Positions 18,773 through 26,611 of a stretch of DNA of 64,000 nucleotides are shown piece after piece (within the stretch, counting starts at the first letter, position 1; each line of letters starts with the position of its first letter). The notes beneath the pieces are model-generated. The model ran no database searches. It saw nothing but the letters and a program-made list of their open reading frames with translations, and had not been told where the DNA came from. Origin of the DNA: Yimella sp. cx-51 (lineage in GTDB: Bacteria > Actinomycetota > Actinomycetes > Actinomycetales > Dermatophilaceae); assembly GCF_017654605.1 (NCBI RefSeq), contig NZ_CP072113.1, forward strand, positions 2,170,001-2,234,000, read 5' to 3'. Made by a program: the position numbers and the translations under genes.

Positions 18773-19048
18773 TCAGGCAGTCAGGCCGGAGGCATCGATC
18801 GAATCGGAGACCACCGTCACCGTGTTGTGGTCGACGGAGATGAAGCCGCCACCGACGGTCACGACCTGACGCGAACCGCTCACCGGGTCGATCCGCACCT
18901 CGGCGGAGTCGGCCAGCACGGACAGCAACGGCGTGTGGTCGGGCAGGATGCCGATCTCACCCTCGACGGTCTTGGCGTACAGCGCCGTGGCTTCGCCTTC
19001 CCAGACCTTGCGGTCAGCGGCGACAAGGTGGACGTTGAGGTTGCTCAC
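18773..19048 (-). CDS. atpC: F1F0 ATP synthase subunit epsilon (short form)
   Basis: A 91-residue epsilon subunit. The N-terminal beta-sandwich is complete (NLNVHLVAADRKVWEGEATA, GEIGILPDHTPLLSVL, GGGFISVDHNTVTVVSD), but the C-terminal pair of helices that inhibits ATP hydrolysis in other bacteria (normal length 120-135) is missing. Short epsilons occur in some Micrococcales. The gene is separated from atpD by 6.1 kb of unrelated genes, so it is not cotranscribed with the rest of the operon and must have its own promoter; the 131-base gap upstream, beyond the asnB terminator, is the likely place. Confidence 0.93.
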   Translation of the reverse strand: MSNLNVHLVAADRKVWEGEATALYAKTVEGEIGILPDHTPLLSVLADSAEVRIDPVSGSRQVVTVGGGFISVDHNTVTVVSDSIDASGLTA

Positions 19049-19129
19049 GCGGATGCTTCTCCTGGCAGATGCTTCGGGGATGACGGAAGTCTAGCGTGCA
19101 AGCGCAGGTGCTCTAACACCGGAACGGCA

Positions 19130-19161
19130 AGCCGAGCGCCAGCTTTCGTGCGCGGCTCGGC
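19130..19161 (-). terminator. Putative terminator of asnB
   Basis: Inverted repeat AGCCGAGC (19130-19137) and GCTCGGCT (19154-19161) lies 18 bases past the asnB stop; consistent with separate transcription of asnB and atpC. Confidence 0.5.
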
Positions 19162-19179
19162 TGGGCGATCCTCGCGAAA

Positions 19180-21822
19180 TCAGTCTTCGACGACGACGAT
19201 CGCCATCGGCGTCTGCTCCGACCCCTGACCGAGCGGGTTGTCGGCGAACATCTCCTCGAACCGCGTCCAGTCGCCTGGCACGTCTGCACCGAGCACATTG
19301 CGTCCGATGTCGTTGGCATCCATGACGATGGTGCCGCCGAAGGTGTCGCGGAACTCTTCAGGAACCCGGGCGCGGATCTGCGTCGACAGTCGCGCGGCGA
19401 CCTGGTCGGGATCCTTGGGAGCCAGCTTCGCCGAGACATTGGAGGGATAGGCCGAGTACTCGGTCGGTCCGTCGATGGCCGAGATGCTGTTGCCCACGAG
19501 TTCGTAGAACAAGCCCTTGCGGCCGATCACCTTTCCGAGAGCGCCACCGGCGCTGGCGTAGAGCACCCGGGGCAGACCGGCTTCCTGGATCGCCAGTTGC
19601 ATCGTGAACGGCGAGCCGAGACCGATGCCGGCCGGGGTGCGGCTGACGTACTTCGACAGCACGCGCGCCGGACGTCCGACATTGATGTCCCAGACGAAGT
19701 ATGAGCGCCCCTGGGTGATCGCGATGATCTTCTCGGAGATGAAGAAGTACCACTGCTTGCCCGCCAGGGCCGCCTGCTGCTGCTCATCGCCTGCCAGCGT
19801 CGTGAAGAAGCGGTCGACGTGCTCCATCGCGAAGGCGTCGAGGTCGGTCTCCTTGCTGACCAGTTCGCTGCGCAGCGGGAAGCGGGTGACGCTCTCCCCC
19901 AGGCTGGTGACCAGGCCGAGCTGCTTGCCCTTGTTGGGCTCCAGGTCCGTCTTGATGCGCTCCGCCTCGGCCTCGACCGGCTTGTCGTCGAAGAACTCAC
20001 GCAGCCAGAGCTCGACGTTGAGCAGACGCCAGAAGGTCATGGAGTCGACGCCGTTGGTGCCCTTGATCCAGCCCTCGAAGGCGGCCACCACTTCGTTCTG
20101 GTCGAAGTAGGGACGGCCGGCGAACTCCTCGGACATGAAGATGCCGTAGAAGGTGTTCTTCAGTCGCATGAACCACTCGCCCTGCGGCGTGGTGAAGCCG
20201 ATCTTGTTGCGGCGCCGGTTGATCATTTCCGGCAGCAGCCCCCGGGTGGCGTCGCGTAGGACGCGCTTGTTCCACCCGTCCTTGATGATCGCCTCGTCCG
20301 AGAGGCTGAAGATGAACTTCACCACTTCCTTGTCCAGGAAGGGCACGCGACCTTCGAGGGAGAAGCGCATGGTGTTCTTGTCCTCGTAGCGCAGCAGCGA
20401 GGGCAAGGAGTTGTGGAAGAGGTCTTCGATCAACCTCAACTTGAGGTTGCTGCTTTCGGTGGTGAAAGTTTCACCGGAGTGGGCGGCGGCGAAGTCCTTG
20501 TTCATGAACGTCGTGGCCGGGATGCCCTTCTTGCGCTTCAGCTTGTCCTGCAGCTTGAAGCGGCCGAGACGGTAGAGCACGTCGAGGCTCTTGGACAGCT
20601 CCATCGCCGCGGCCTTGTTGCCCTGGGCCTTGAGCTGGCGCAGGTAGACGAAGTAGTACGGGATGTAGCCGGCCATCATCTCGTCGGCGCCCTGGCCGTC
20701 GAGCAGCACAGTGACGTGCTTGGTCGCCTCGCGCATCACCTGGAACTGCGCGTAGGGCCCGGAGGAGATCAGCGGCTCCTCCTGGGTGCGGATGAAATCG
20801 AGCAGGTCCTGCTTGAACTCATCGGCGGTGGGAAGAATCTTGTGCGACTCCACCTGCCCCTTGCAGATGTCGAGGACGGCGTCGACGTACTTCTCCTCGT
20901 CGTTCATCGAGCCCGGGAAGACCGCGGAGAAGGTGTTCTGACGGGCGCCCACCGAGGAGGTCGTGGCATCGCCCTCGTTGAGCAACTGGTTGATGATCAC
21001 CGCGACGGCGCTGGAGTCGAGGCCGCCGGACAGCGACGTGCCCACCGGCACCTCCGACTGCAGGCGCAGACGGATCGACTCGATCAGGCGCGCCTTGTAC
21101 TCCGCGGCAGCTGCTTCGTCGTAGGGACGCTGCTGTTTGCCGAGTTCGGCCAGCTCCTGCTGCAACTGGGTGTACGGCTTGCGCTCGGTGCCGGAGGCGT
21201 CGATCGTCAGCATCTCGCCCGGCTGGAGGCGCTCGATGCCCTCGAAGAAGGTCTCGCGGCCGTCCTCGTGGATGCGGAAGCGCAGGTAACGGTAGAGCGA
21301 GCGCTCGTTGACGGCCTTCTGGTAGAGGCCGCTGGCCAGGATCGACTTGATCTCGGAGGCGAACAGCAGCGTGTCGCCGACCTGCGCGAGATAGACCGGC
21401 TTGATGCCGAAGTGGTCGCGCGAGAGCGTCAGGCGCTGCTCCTTGGCGTCCCAGATCGCCAGGCCCCACATGCCGTTGAACTTGTCGAAGGCGTCACCGC
21501 CCCACTGGGCGAAGGCCTCGAGCACGACCTCGGTGTCGGAGTCGGTGGTGAAGCTGCGGCCGAGTGCCTCCAGTTCGCTACGCAGGTCGAGGTAGTTGTA
21601 GACCTCGCCGTTGTAGACGATCGTGTACCGGCCGTCCGCCGAGCGCATCGGCTGCTGACCGTGCGCCACGTCGATGATCGACAAGCGACGGTGTCCCAGC
21701 CCGACCGAACCGTCGACGTAGGCGCCCTCACCGTCCGGGCCGCGATGGGCCTGGCAATCGTTCATCGCACGAAGCATTGCTTCGGTGCCGTCCGGGCCGT
21801 AGTAGCCGACGATTCCACACAT
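19180..21822 (-). CDS. asnB: Asparagine synthase (glutamine-hydrolysing) with C-terminal CofE-like domain
   Basis: An 880-residue protein, about 250 longer than usual AsnB. The Ntn glutaminase begins MCGIVGYYG (nucleophile Cys2), with RGPDG at 27-31 and NGE at 71-73; the synthetase has the PP-loop SGGLDSS at 265-271, then DGQGADEMMAGY and SLEGRVPFLDKEVVKF. From about residue 628 there is a further domain resembling coenzyme F420:L-glutamate ligase (CofE-like): KIIAITQGR at 698-706, then RTPAGIGLGSPFTMQLAI, GRKGLFYELVGN, SAIDGPT, LAPKDPDQVA, DANDIGRNVLG at 835 and DNPLGQGSEQTPMAIV at 861. The frame is open to 21981 but Cys2 must follow the initiator, fixing 21822. It lies inside the split ATP synthase locus, with its own terminator. 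Substrate unknown; amidation plus glutamylation of one molecule is a possibility. Confidence 0.88.
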   Translation of the reverse strand: MCGIVGYYGPDGTEAMLRAMNDCQAHRGPDGEGAYVDGSVGLGHRRLSIIDVAHGQQPMRSADGRYTIVYNGEVYNYLDLRSELEALGRSFTTDSDTEVVLEAFAQWGGDAFDKFNGMWGLAIWDAKEQRLTLSRDHFGIKPVYLAQVGDTLLFASEIKSILASGLYQKAVNERSLYRYLRFRIHEDGRETFFEGIERLQPGEMLTIDASGTERKPYTQLQQELAELGKQQRPYDEAAAAEYKARLIESIRLRLQSEVPVGTSLSGGLDSSAVAVIINQLLNEGDATTSSVGARQNTFSAVFPGSMNDEEKYVDAVLDICKGQVESHKILPTADEFKQDLLDFIRTQEEPLISSGPYAQFQVMREATKHVTVLLDGQGADEMMAGYIPYYFVYLRQLKAQGNKAAAMELSKSLDVLYRLGRFKLQDKLKRKKGIPATTFMNKDFAAAHSGETFTTESSNLKLRLIEDLFHNSLPSLLRYEDKNTMRFSLEGRVPFLDKEVVKFIFSLSDEAIIKDGWNKRVLRDATRGLLPEMINRRRNKIGFTTPQGEWFMRLKNTFYGIFMSEEFAGRPYFDQNEVVAAFEGWIKGTNGVDSMTFWRLLNVELWLREFFDDKPVEAEAERIKTDLEPNKGKQLGLVTSLGESVTRFPLRSELVSKETDLDAFAMEHVDRFFTTLAGDEQQQAALAGKQWYFFISEKIIAITQGRSYFVWDINVGRPARVLSKYVSRTPAGIGLGSPFTMQLAIQEAGLPRVLYASAGGALGKVIGRKGLFYELVGNSISAIDGPTEYSAYPSNVSAKLAPKDPDQVAARLSTQIRARVPEEFRDTFGGTIVMDANDIGRNVLGADVPGDWTRFEEMFADNPLGQGSEQTPMAIVVVED

Positions 21823-21915
21823 GCGCACCATCCTATTTGCCACTGACCCGTGCACCGACCACCGCGTGCCCGCGCGTTGCGAGGCGGGCCACCTATTGCG
21901 TGGAAGGATTATCCG

Positions 21916-22752
21916 GTGAGCTGGGGGATGGTCGGTGCGATCGTTGCAGCACTTGCCTACGGTGCCTCCACCATTCTGCAAGCGATCGGCGTCCGGCGGA
22001 TCGCGGACGCACCCGAGGGCAGTGGGTGGGTTGATCGCGCCCGTGCCGGTTGGCTGTACGGCGTCGGACTCGGTCTGGACGCCGTCGGGTTCTTGGCCTC
22101 GTTCGCTGCGCTGCGTACGCTTCCGCTCTTCCTGGTCGAGTCCGTGCTGGCGGCCTCGGTCGCGGTGACGGCGGGCCTGGCTGTTTGGTTCTTGGGGCTT
22201 CGGCTGGCGCGACGAGAAGTGTTGGCTTTGCTAGTGATCGGTGTCGGGCTGGTGCTGCTTGCCGTGAGTGCCGAGGAGGGCCACGCACGCCAGGTCGGCC
22301 ACCGGGGTGGACTGTTGTTGGTTGGTCTGGCACTCGTCGTCGCGGCGATCTTCGCCGTGGGCTACCTCGACAAGCGGGCTTCCCGCTCGTCAATCGTGCT
22401 GGCCACAGCCAGCGGTCTCGGCTTCGGCGTCGTCGGTATCGCCTCGCGCGTCCTGCAGATTCCTGACGCCTGGTGGCGCGTCGTCCTGGAGCCAACGCTG
22501 TGGGCTCTGGCCATCGCCGGTGGCCTAGCTGTCATCGCATACGCCTTCGCCCTGGAGCGCGGCCGCACCACGAGCGTCGCGGCCATCACCTTTGCCACCG
22601 AGACGATCCTGCCGGCCACAGTCGGACTGCTCCTGCTCGGCGACCGGGTGCGTGATCACTTCGCAGTCGCTGCGTCGATCGGTTTCGTCATCACACTGGG
22701 CGGTTGCATCGCGTTGGCGGCGCGCGCCGAGCCGGAAGTCACCCGCGCGTAG
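21916..22752 (+). CDS. DMT-type (EamA-like) membrane transporter
   Basis: A 278-residue integral membrane protein with nine or ten hydrophobic helices, for example MVGAIVAALAYGASTILQAI, ALLVIGVGLVLLAVS and GGLAVIAYAFALERG. The layout resembles the drug/metabolite transporter superfamily, where a signature SFAALRTLPLFLVESVLAA and the late TFATETILPATVGLLLLGD (with an acidic residue in a helix) are typical. The GTG at 21916 (MSWGMVGAIV) follows a good SD (GGAAGGA); the frame extends to 21850. It is divergent from asnB with 93 bases between starts, so both promoters are in that gap. Substrate unknown. Confidence 0.8.
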   Translation: MSWGMVGAIVAALAYGASTILQAIGVRRIADAPEGSGWVDRARAGWLYGVGLGLDAVGFLASFAALRTLPLFLVESVLAASVAVTAGLAVWFLGLRLARREVLALLVIGVGLVLLAVSAEEGHARQVGHRGGLLLVGLALVVAAIFAVGYLDKRASRSSIVLATASGLGFGVVGIASRVLQIPDAWWRVVLEPTLWALAIAGGLAVIAYAFALERGRTTSVAAITFATETILPATVGLLLLGDRVRDHFAVAASIGFVITLGGCIALAARAEPEVTRA

Positions 22753-22762
22753 GCTCGGCTCC

Positions 22763-23407
22763 GTGGACTCCCCCGAAAGCATCGACGACTACTACGCCCG
22801 GATCGAAGCCGCGCTCGGCCCTGAGCGTCGTCTCCCTGTGGCCATCGAGGAGATGCCGGGGTGGGACATCTTCCCCTTCGAGGTCGACTCGCTGCGCATC
22901 AAGCCTCTTGCGCCGTTGGCGGACACCGAACCGGCTCGCCGCGGTGAAGATGCCGTCGACTGCTGGTGCGACCGGCCACACGATCCGGACGCTGCGGGGC
23001 TGGTCTGGTCGAACGACCGGTGGAAGGTGTCGACGGACGTGGATGGGTCCGGGCTGCCGATCATGCTCTGGTTGAGTCCGCTCACCCACTGCGATCTGCC
23101 CACCATGCCGACCGACGTGGCTGCGGAATTCGGACCGCTCGTCGCGACGATCTCGGCCGCGATCGAAGACCTCCCCAGTGTCGGACGCGTCCAGCTGGCG
23201 AAGTACGGCGACGGTGGGGCGCACTTGCACCTGTTCTTCATGGGACGCCCGCTGCGCATGCTTCAACTGCGTGGGTCACCGATGCTCGACTGGGAGGAGA
23301 ACCTCCCCCGCGTCCCGGCCGACGTCGTCGCGCGGAATGCGCGACCGGTCGCGGAGGCGTTGACCGCAGTTCATGGTGGCCATCTCGGGCCGGTCGTCCG
23401 CGCTTGA
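22763..23407 (+). CDS. HIT-like hypothetical protein
   Basis: A 214-residue soluble protein with GTG start at 22763, 10 bases after the transporter gene. It has a Trp-rich middle (DCWCDRPHDPDAAGLVWSND) and a histidine motif GAHLHLFFMGRPLRMLQLRG resembling the H-x-H-x of histidine-triad-type Ap4A-hydrolase-like proteins, although the third histidine is not clear. The open frame continues to 22592 inside the transporter gene and is a shadow. The gene is cotranscribed with the DMT protein; function is not known. Confidence 0.65.
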   Translation: MDSPESIDDYYARIEAALGPERRLPVAIEEMPGWDIFPFEVDSLRIKPLAPLADTEPARRGEDAVDCWCDRPHDPDAAGLVWSNDRWKVSTDVDGSGLPIMLWLSPLTHCDLPTMPTDVAAEFGPLVATISAAIEDLPSVGRVQLAKYGDGGAHLHLFFMGRPLRMLQLRGSPMLDWEENLPRVPADVVARNARPVAEALTAVHGGHLGPVVRA

Positions 23408-23555
23408 CTCCGCGTCAGAGAGGCCGGTCCTCATGACGAGCACACCTGCGGTGCCGCTGATGCGGCGAGGTAGCCGATCTCACGGCGGTCGTGCCTTGGC
23501 GGTGACCCTGTCGCGACCCTCAGTCGCTACCGGCGTCGTGATGCTGCCTGTCGGC

Positions 23556-24908
23556 CTACCGGGCGCGAAGTGATTCGCCGCGTTTTGTGAGGACGTCCGC
23601 TTCACTGGGCGGGGTGATGACCGCCGACTTGGACGGGATGAGCGGGTCGGGTACAGCCTTGGTGATCCGGTTCAGACCGGTCATCACGTGGTAGCTGATG
23701 AGCACCGCGAGGGTGCCGAGCGCGATGCCGGAGAAGGTCAGGTCGCCGATCTTCCAGGTGTAGTCGGCGATGCCGACAATGAGACCGATGGCAGCCGAGG
23801 TGAGGTTGATCGGGTTGCCGAAGTCGACCCGGTTGTCGATCCAGATGCGGGCGCCGAGCAGGCCGATCATGCCGTAGAGAATCGTGCCGGCGCCGCCGAG
23901 GACGCCCTTCGGGACCGTCGCGATCGCCTCACCGAACTTCGGGACACAGCTCAACAGCAACGCCCCGAAGGCTGCCACCCAGTAGGCAGCGGTCGAGTAG
24001 ACCTTGGTCGCCGCCATCACGCCGATGTTCTCCGCGTACGTCGTGGTGCCTGACCCACCGCCTGCACCCGCCAAGGTCGTCGCCAGGCCGTCAGCCATGA
24101 GTGCGCGTCCGGACACGTCGTCCAAATCGCGTCCGGTCATCTGGGCGACCGACTTCACGTGCCCGATGTTCTCGGCCACCAGCACCAGCACCACGGGAAC
24201 GAAGAGGACGGCGATCGACAGGTGGAACGAGGGTGCCTGGAAATCGGGCAATCCGACCCACGCTTCCTTGCGCACTTTGGTGAAGTCGACCTCGTTGCGC
24301 AACACAGCCACGAGGTAGCCGGCCAGCACACCGAACAGGATTCCCAGGCGTCCGATCAGTCCGCGGAAGAGCACGGTGACCAACGCGACAACCACGAGCG
24401 TGACGGTGCCGGTGACCGGCGACACGACAAAGTTGTTCTTCGCAGCCGGCGCGAGGTTCAGCCCGATCAACGCCACGATGGCGCCGGTGACCAGCGGCGG
24501 CATGAGGGTGCGCAACCAGTGGGCCCCGAGCAGTTGGACGACCAGCCCGACCAGGAACAGCGCCACGCCGGCAAGGAGCACGCCTCCGAGCGCGCCGCTC
24601 ATGCCGTGCTCCGACTTCGCCGCAGTGATCGGCGCGATGAAGGCGAATGACGATCCGAGGTAACTCGGGACGCGTCCGGCGGTCAGCAGCAGGAACAACA
24701 TCGTTCCGAGCCCGGAGAAGAACAGCGTCGTGGACGGCGGGAAATCGGTGATCAGCGGCACCAAGAAGGTCGCGCCGAACATCGCGACGATGTGTTGAGC
24801 ACCGATGCCGGCGGTGCGTGGCCAGCTCAATCGCTCGTCGGGGGCCACCACCTCGCCCTTGCCGATCGAGCGTCCGTCACCGTGCAGCGTCCAGCCGAGT
24901 CCATTCAC
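23556..24908 (-). CDS. NCS2-family uracil/xanthine permease
   Basis: A 450-residue nucleobase permease with about 14 membrane segments. The N-terminus GAQHIVAMFGATFLVPLITD has the conserved QH motif, followed by SFAFIAPITAAK, and the signature VAENIGHVKSVAQMTGRDLD has the ENIG/glutamate loop of the family, with GLATTLAGAGGGSGTTTYAE then NIGVMAATK. It would import uracil or a purine with protons. It has its own promoter region 24909-25100, where I see no riboswitch; the block of non-atp genes ends here. Confidence 0.92.
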   Translation of the reverse strand: MNGLGWTLHGDGRSIGKGEVVAPDERLSWPRTAGIGAQHIVAMFGATFLVPLITDFPPSTTLFFSGLGTMLFLLLTAGRVPSYLGSSFAFIAPITAAKSEHGMSGALGGVLLAGVALFLVGLVVQLLGAHWLRTLMPPLVTGAIVALIGLNLAPAAKNNFVVSPVTGTVTLVVVALVTVLFRGLIGRLGILFGVLAGYLVAVLRNEVDFTKVRKEAWVGLPDFQAPSFHLSIAVLFVPVVLVLVAENIGHVKSVAQMTGRDLDDVSGRALMADGLATTLAGAGGGSGTTTYAENIGVMAATKVYSTAAYWVAAFGALLLSCVPKFGEAIATVPKGVLGGAGTILYGMIGLLGARIWIDNRVDFGNPINLTSAAIGLIVGIADYTWKIGDLTFSGIALGTLAVLISYHVMTGLNRITKAVPDPLIPSKSAVITPPSEADVLTKRGESLRAR

Positions 24909-25100
24909 GATCAGTCAGCTTATCGACTGCTCGCCGCTGCCGTCCGCGGTGGCCAGTCCACCCCTGACCGCGGCCTCCACAACTGCGGCCCTACCGGGCA
25001 GGTGCGCCAGCTGCAGCTGCCGCGCCTGCGAAGAAGGGCCGCGTATGCCGCTGGAACCGCCGCGTTTGCTCGGCGTCCATTGAGGTTGAGTGGCACGACA

Positions 25101-25130
25101 AAGGGTCCCGGACAATTGCCCGGGACCCTT
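25101..25130 (-). terminator. Terminator at the 3' end of the atpI-D operon
   Basis: An 11-bp perfect stem AAGGGTCCCGG (25101-25111) with CCGGGACCCTT (25120-25130), 20 bases past the atpD stop; a short T-rich run follows on the minus strand. It ends the operon before the displaced atpC. Confidence 0.85.
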
Positions 25131-25150
25131 CATCGATCTGGAGTGGAGAC

Positions 25151-26611
<1,461 letters not shown>

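Follow-up and report, generated by a model that had tools for sequence, protein, structure and literature searches.

Asparagine synthetase fused to a divergent CofE-superfamily domain in Yimella: a candidate ligase for peptidoglycan precursors

The window analysed here, a stretch of 64,000 nucleotides from the Yimella sp. cx-51 genome (contig NZ_CP072113.1, positions 2,170,001 to 2,234,000), contains a gene in which an asparagine synthetase (AsnB) continues into a tail of about 250 residues. What does this tail do, and does it need AsnB to do it? A preliminary description of the locus related the tail to CofE, the F420:L-glutamate ligase, and proposed a two-step modifier that glutamylates and amidates the same molecule, for example a cofactor, a peptidoglycan precursor or a compatible solute.

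Domain architecture and fold of the fusion protein

The gene is a single frame of 880 codons, the product of which begins with MCGIVGYYG and is matched by both AsnB and CofE-superfamily domains, so the fusion that had been described is genuine (Table 1). Pfam assigns GATase_7/GATase_6 and Asn_synthase (E 1.4e-60), and the protein scores 414 bits against the NCBIfam family TIGR01536 (asn_synth_AEB), well above the cut-off of 267. Together with Cys2 and the PP-loop, these matches agree with the earlier view that both AsnB domains are present, and residues 1-608 form a complete AsnB, with asparagine synthesis itself as a putative activity. The N-terminal 620 residues thus resemble AsnB of TIGR01536, from which the fusion differs in its extra tail and in the AsnB half being often catalytically dead in other carriers. 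In a genome-wide search, the fusion was the sole Asn_synthase protein of the window genome. A role in supplying asparagine for translation is unlikely: of 29 carrier genomes, none encodes an AsnRS that scores above the curated cut-off, so translation probably does not require free asparagine. A full-text literature search found no description of an AsnB/F420-ligase fusion, yet the fusion is not unique to the window genome. The fusion region gave no match to Rfam RNAs and no promoter-like site, and its single terminator-like site is no more than expected by chance.

Table 1. Features of the fusion gene in the window
Feature	Position	Strand	Basis and remarks
AsnB-CofE-like fusion gene, 880 aa	19180..21822	-	translation and domain matches
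N-terminal glutaminase (class II Ntn, GATase_7/6), Cys2 present	21334..21822	-	translation, Pfam, alignment
Asn_synthase domain, aa 242-608, intact	19999..21099	-	Pfam
PP-loop SGGLDSS, aa 265-271	21010..21030	-	translation, homologue comparison
CofE-like tail, aa 629-880	19183..19938	-	Pfam, alignment, AlphaFold, Foldseek, profile comparison
Tail residue D156 (IDGP), aligned with CofE D109	19471..19473	-	invariant; by-eye alignment
Tail residue D207 (DANDIG), aligned with CofE D150 (DTNGR)	19318..19320	-	invariant; alignment

Scanned alone, the tail gives a weak match to PF01996 (F420_ligase; 18.0 bits, E 0.0022), which lies below the cut-off of 25 bits. Homologous tails were gathered from genomes of the family and from GTDB contigs, and 51 of them were aligned; PF01996 matches 46 of the 51 at E<=0.01 when each is scanned singly, with a best E of 6.9e-11. 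About 50 columns of this alignment, which includes several carriers with a dead AsnB, are invariant, and the motifs quoted in the preliminary description lie for the most part in columns that are invariant or nearly so. AlphaFold with the 51-sequence alignment produced a model of the tail with a pLDDT of 87.5 and a pTM of 0.85, and the model made without an alignment was useless (pLDDT 36). A Foldseek search of the PDB with the former model gave significant hits only to Archaeoglobus fulgidus CofE (2g9i/2phn/7uld; E 4e-7 to 6e-6, probability 1.00, TM about 0.5, identity 15%). Structure prediction, which had been suggested as a way of comparing the tail with CofE, thus yields the CofE fold and not an unrelated one. 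Searching the PDB by sequence, with either the tail or its profile, gave no meaningful match. Consistently, a profile-profile comparison of the tail with 22 canonical CofE sequences gave an E of 1.1e-5. The tail is a divergent CofE-superfamily domain with collinear motifs: S-K, D..SN, LPxDPD and D-T/A-N-G-R stand in the same order as in the N-terminal domain of CofE/FbiB (PF01996, TIGR01916), with which it has its fold in common. D156 and D207 of the tail are a putative metal-binding pair by alignment with D109 and D150, which bind metal in CofE, an enzyme that uses GTP, two Mn2+ and L-glutamate. As in CofE, the reaction of the tail is probably an NTP- and metal-dependent amide ligation. CofE residue numbering was checked against F92 and G153-C155 (PMC10861534).

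However, the tail differs from CofE in several respects. In addition to its low identity, it has an insert of about 8 residues ahead of the SN motif, and it ends about 40 residues after the DANDIGR motif, whereas CofE continues for about 70. The F420-binding hairpin of CofE lies in the C-terminal part that the tail largely lacks. No NCBIfam family matches the window tail itself, TIGR01916 and TIGR04132 included. Stand-alone relatives of the tail reach at most 33 bits with TIGR01916 (cut-off 180.65), far below the equivalog level, and some of them score about 20 bits with TIGR04132 (cut-off 350), a "putative folate metabolism gamma-glutamate ligase" of the same superfamily. Unlike CofE, the tail is fused to or adjoins AsnB, and canonical FbiA and CofE/FbiB are encoded elsewhere in the window genome. 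Because of these separate FbiA and CofE/FbiB genes, the scores below cut-off and the lack of an NCBIfam match of its own, the tail is a distinct subfamily, which by no test made is an F420 enzyme. In the genome's own CofE/FbiB frame (L111:1087-2775), the part C-terminal to the CofE domain looks unlike the usual nitroreductase domain of FbiB.

Carriers of the tail, decay of AsnB and exclusion of MurT

The tail domain occurs in 25 of 396 genomes of an Actinomycetota sample and in 21 of 287 genomes of the sampled phylum of a Roizmanbacterium, in the latter usually as a separate gene of about 235 residues. Fusions were found in Intrasporangiaceae/Dermatophilaceae, Micromonosporaceae, Glycomycetaceae, Actinomycetaceae, Dermabacteraceae, Propionibacteriaceae, Coriobacteria and Patescibacteria. 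As far as the searches extended, the fusion is confined to Actinomycetota and Patescibacteria, and the tail is not a common AsnB extension in many phyla, which the preliminary description had considered as an outcome against its reading. AsnB and tail genes are adjacent and unfused in L138, L149, L151, L206, L209 and L211 (AsnB confirmed by Pfam in L138, L149, L151 and L206). L109 carries a lone tail between HtpX and GatC, where its relatives have the fusion, in a genome with no AsnB anywhere. In the domain tree, the main fused group forms one supported branch, and a second fusion (L207/L208) branches elsewhere. Terrabacter, Terracoccus and Humibacillus have a pair of fusion paralogues, of which one has a diverged AsnB half and the other an intact one (L039-L041, L049, L052, L053 and L067, L070, L074-L076). 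Closely related fusions in MAGs of Coriobacteria, Nomurabacteria and Saccharibacteria (L062-L065) suggest either transfer between phyla or a binning error.

The AsnB half has lost its active site repeatedly. Both Cys2 and the PP-loop are missing in Microlunatus, Dermabacter, Fodinicola and several MAGs; in Knoellia remsis, Janibacter HTCC2649, Geodermatophilus and a Patescibacterium, Cys2 is lost and the PP-loop is altered while the tail is intact. The AsnB half of Knoellia locipacati is intact. In the group with the greatest decay, the AsnB half is 29-35% and the tail 54-68% identical to the window protein, and the genomes of M. parietis and Dermabacter have no intact AsnB elsewhere. The dead-AsnB state requires about 10 changes on the domain tree, at least 4 of which are forced by supported branches. 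Because AsnB catalytic residues have been lost in several lineages while the tail keeps its own, the predicted activity of the tail, rather than that of AsnB, is the constant one. The earlier interpretation stands as far as the fusion is concerned; AsnB as the essential half of a fixed two-step enzyme does not, its catalytic residues being lost in these lineages and AsnB being absent from G156, where the tail is intact.

The tail is found where MurT is missing. Among 150 genomes of the window's family, the tail is present in 49, a clear MurT in 90, both in none and neither in 11. The only tail genome with any MurT_C match (G136; 24.5 bits, 417-residue frame) was discounted, genuine full-length matches scoring at least 88. 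No MurT_C (PF08353) was found in the window genome. The Fisher probability of the exclusion within the family (3e-29) takes no account of kinship and is left aside. In an AtpA tree of 101 of the 150 genomes, 9 changes are required for the tail and 10 for MurT, of which 7 and 8, respectively, are forced by well-supported branches. Along pairs on separate tree paths, MurT changes in the direction opposite to the tail about 5 times and never in the same direction; a sign test on independent pairs is borderline (median p 0.06, range 0.03-0.125). In the phylum sample, MurT occurs in 3 of the 25 tail genomes against 11.9 expected (p 1.3e-4), and it is absent from 38 of the 43 tail-bearing genomes of all kinds, Patescibacteria included. 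The actinobacterial genomes with both are G503, a MAG with 5% contamination, and G572 and G689, which belong to one genus; the tail of G572 is very divergent and adjoins MurT-GatD. This distribution suggests that the tail may be the enzyme capping D-Glu at position 2 (D-Glu2) of peptidoglycan precursors.

A possible ligase for the D-Glu2 carboxyl

MurT-GatD is the known enzyme that amidates the alpha-carboxyl of D-Glu2, a modification essential in several Gram-positive pathogens (PMC3266927). In the type strain of Intrasporangium calvum, this carboxyl of the peptidoglycan carries glycine (PMC3035309). Another I. calvum strain carries an intact fusion (L055); one species is one data point, and its chemistry is not linked to the fusion gene. 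CofE uses phosphoryl transfer from GTP to attach an amino acid to a carboxyl (PMC10861534). The target of MurT-GatD, the glycine of I. calvum and the chemistry of CofE together suggest an enzyme that would ligate glycine or ammonia to D-Glu2.

The reading that we favour, at about an even chance of being right, is that the tail uses an NTP to ligate glycine or ammonia to the D-Glu2 alpha-carboxyl of peptidoglycan precursors, capping it in place of the MurT-GatD amidating complex, and that AsnB is an optional amidating partner. The functional evidence is comparative throughout. The tail would be the conserved working part, a metal-dependent amide ligase of the CofE fold acting on peptidoglycan precursors rather than on F420. 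Its amine would most probably be an amino acid such as glycine, because CofE itself joins an amino acid, with ammonia as the alternative. An intact AsnB half would act as an amidotransferase on the same substrate, either amidating the newly added residue or supplying ammonia, and could be lost. We infer the substrate, the acceptor carboxyl, the nucleophile and the order of steps of the tail reaction. Among the targets offered earlier, the peptidoglycan precursor is now the best supported; that the ligated amino acid is glutamate is no more than a possibility, and the sole chemical datum found points to glycine.

Such a system would resemble MurT-GatD in its proposed target and in pairing an amide ligase with a glutaminase-bearing partner, and the two are found in alternative genomes. 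However, their folds are unrelated: MurT belongs to the Mur ligases and GatD to the class I glutaminases, whereas the tail is a CofE-fold ligase with a class II partner of the AsnB type. More specifically, and only tentatively, the tail might attach glycine, or an amino acid like it, to the D-Glu2 alpha-carboxyl of the precursor without tRNA, and thus represent a class of CofE-fold cell-wall ligases; intact fusions would then amidate the added residue and those with a dead AsnB would not. Glycine-amide substituents are known from classical cell-wall work, which also assigns glycine to D-Glu2 in Micrococcus luteus and Arthrobacter. If the proposal is correct, it would link the glycine substituent of classical cell-wall chemistry to a gene, widen the reach of the CofE fold from cofactor tails to the cell wall, and explain the many actinobacteria without MurT by a second, unrelated family for the same carboxyl. 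It would also suggest a cell-wall gene in Patescibacteria, the peptidoglycan of which is little known.

Alternatively, the fusion could be a true MurT-GatD analogue, in which the tail activates D-Glu2 and the AsnB glutaminase channels ammonia to it, giving D-isoglutamine with no amino acid added. The mutual exclusion with MurT fits this mechanism, and so does the association of the ligase with a protein that has a glutaminase domain, in fusions and in adjacent pairs. However, it is unlikely, because Cys2 is lost and the PP-loop lost or altered in several carriers with an intact tail, CofE itself joins an amino acid, and I. calvum bears glycine at this position (PMC3035309).

A two-step modifier of a small molecule, such as a cofactor, a compatible solute or a dipeptide, the earlier idea, is quite unlikely. 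It would be comparable to N-acetylglutaminylglutamine amide synthesis, in which an AsnB-type amidotransferase (TIGR03104) works with a ligase that is not known to be CofE-like. The AsnB half scores 321 bits against TIGR03104, below the cut-off of 570, and apparent glycine-betaine transporter genes were read by eye near some Salinispora loci. However, those genes are convergent and form no operon with the fusion, AsnB is dispensable, and this mechanism gives no reason for the exclusion of MurT.

It is very unlikely that the protein is an ordinary asparagine synthetase with a regulatory or structural add-on lacking catalysis. The intact AsnB half of the window protein, its being the only Asn_synthase protein of the genome and the distance of the tail from CofE would agree with such a view, but the tail survives alone in L109 and many Patescibacteria, with no AsnB at all in G156, is better kept than the decaying AsnB half, and has its invariant residues, the aligned Asp pair among them. 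Glutamylation of F420, folate or another cofactor by a diverged CofE or TIGR04132-type enzyme, to which superfamily kinship and the weak matches of some stand-alone relatives could point, is highly improbable given the canonical FbiA and CofE/FbiB of the window genome, the scores far below curated cut-offs and the shortened hairpin-bearing region.

Genomic context

Cell-wall and division genes lie beside the tail at several loci. The order in L206 is SepF-ProC-YggT-AsnB-tail-DivIVA; the tail adjoins a transglycosylase and MurT-GatD in L196, mraZ-rsmH-ftsI in L135 and L136, MurJ in L203 and L205, and VanW in L139. However, the excess of such neighbours over control stretches of the same genomes is not significant (9/38 v 5/40, p 0.16). 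In Microgenomates, a cluster LemA-HtpX-(AsnB-CofE-like)-GatC-GatA-GatB-DnaE is conserved (L093, L099, L103-L107, L109, L110 and L149). A link to tRNA amidation through GatCAB was rejected, because the tail occurs in many other settings; the peptidoglycan model leaves this association unexplained.

In a Patescibacterium, a CofE-like domain is fused in frame to adenylate kinase (L146:6976-8385), within an apparent ribosomal-protein operon and directly behind a SecY-like gene. Two genomes from a single genus of the window's order have a stand-alone tail that starts within a few bases of the end of an apparent rpoD (L192:4363-6416 and L193:5426-7380), with an alanine racemase gene a few kilobases away. 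In the window, the ATP synthase operon is split (18773-26608): atpD (25151-26608, minus strand) and atpC (18773-19048, minus strand) are about 6 kb apart, and between them lie the fusion gene, two plus-strand genes and a xanthine/uracil permease.
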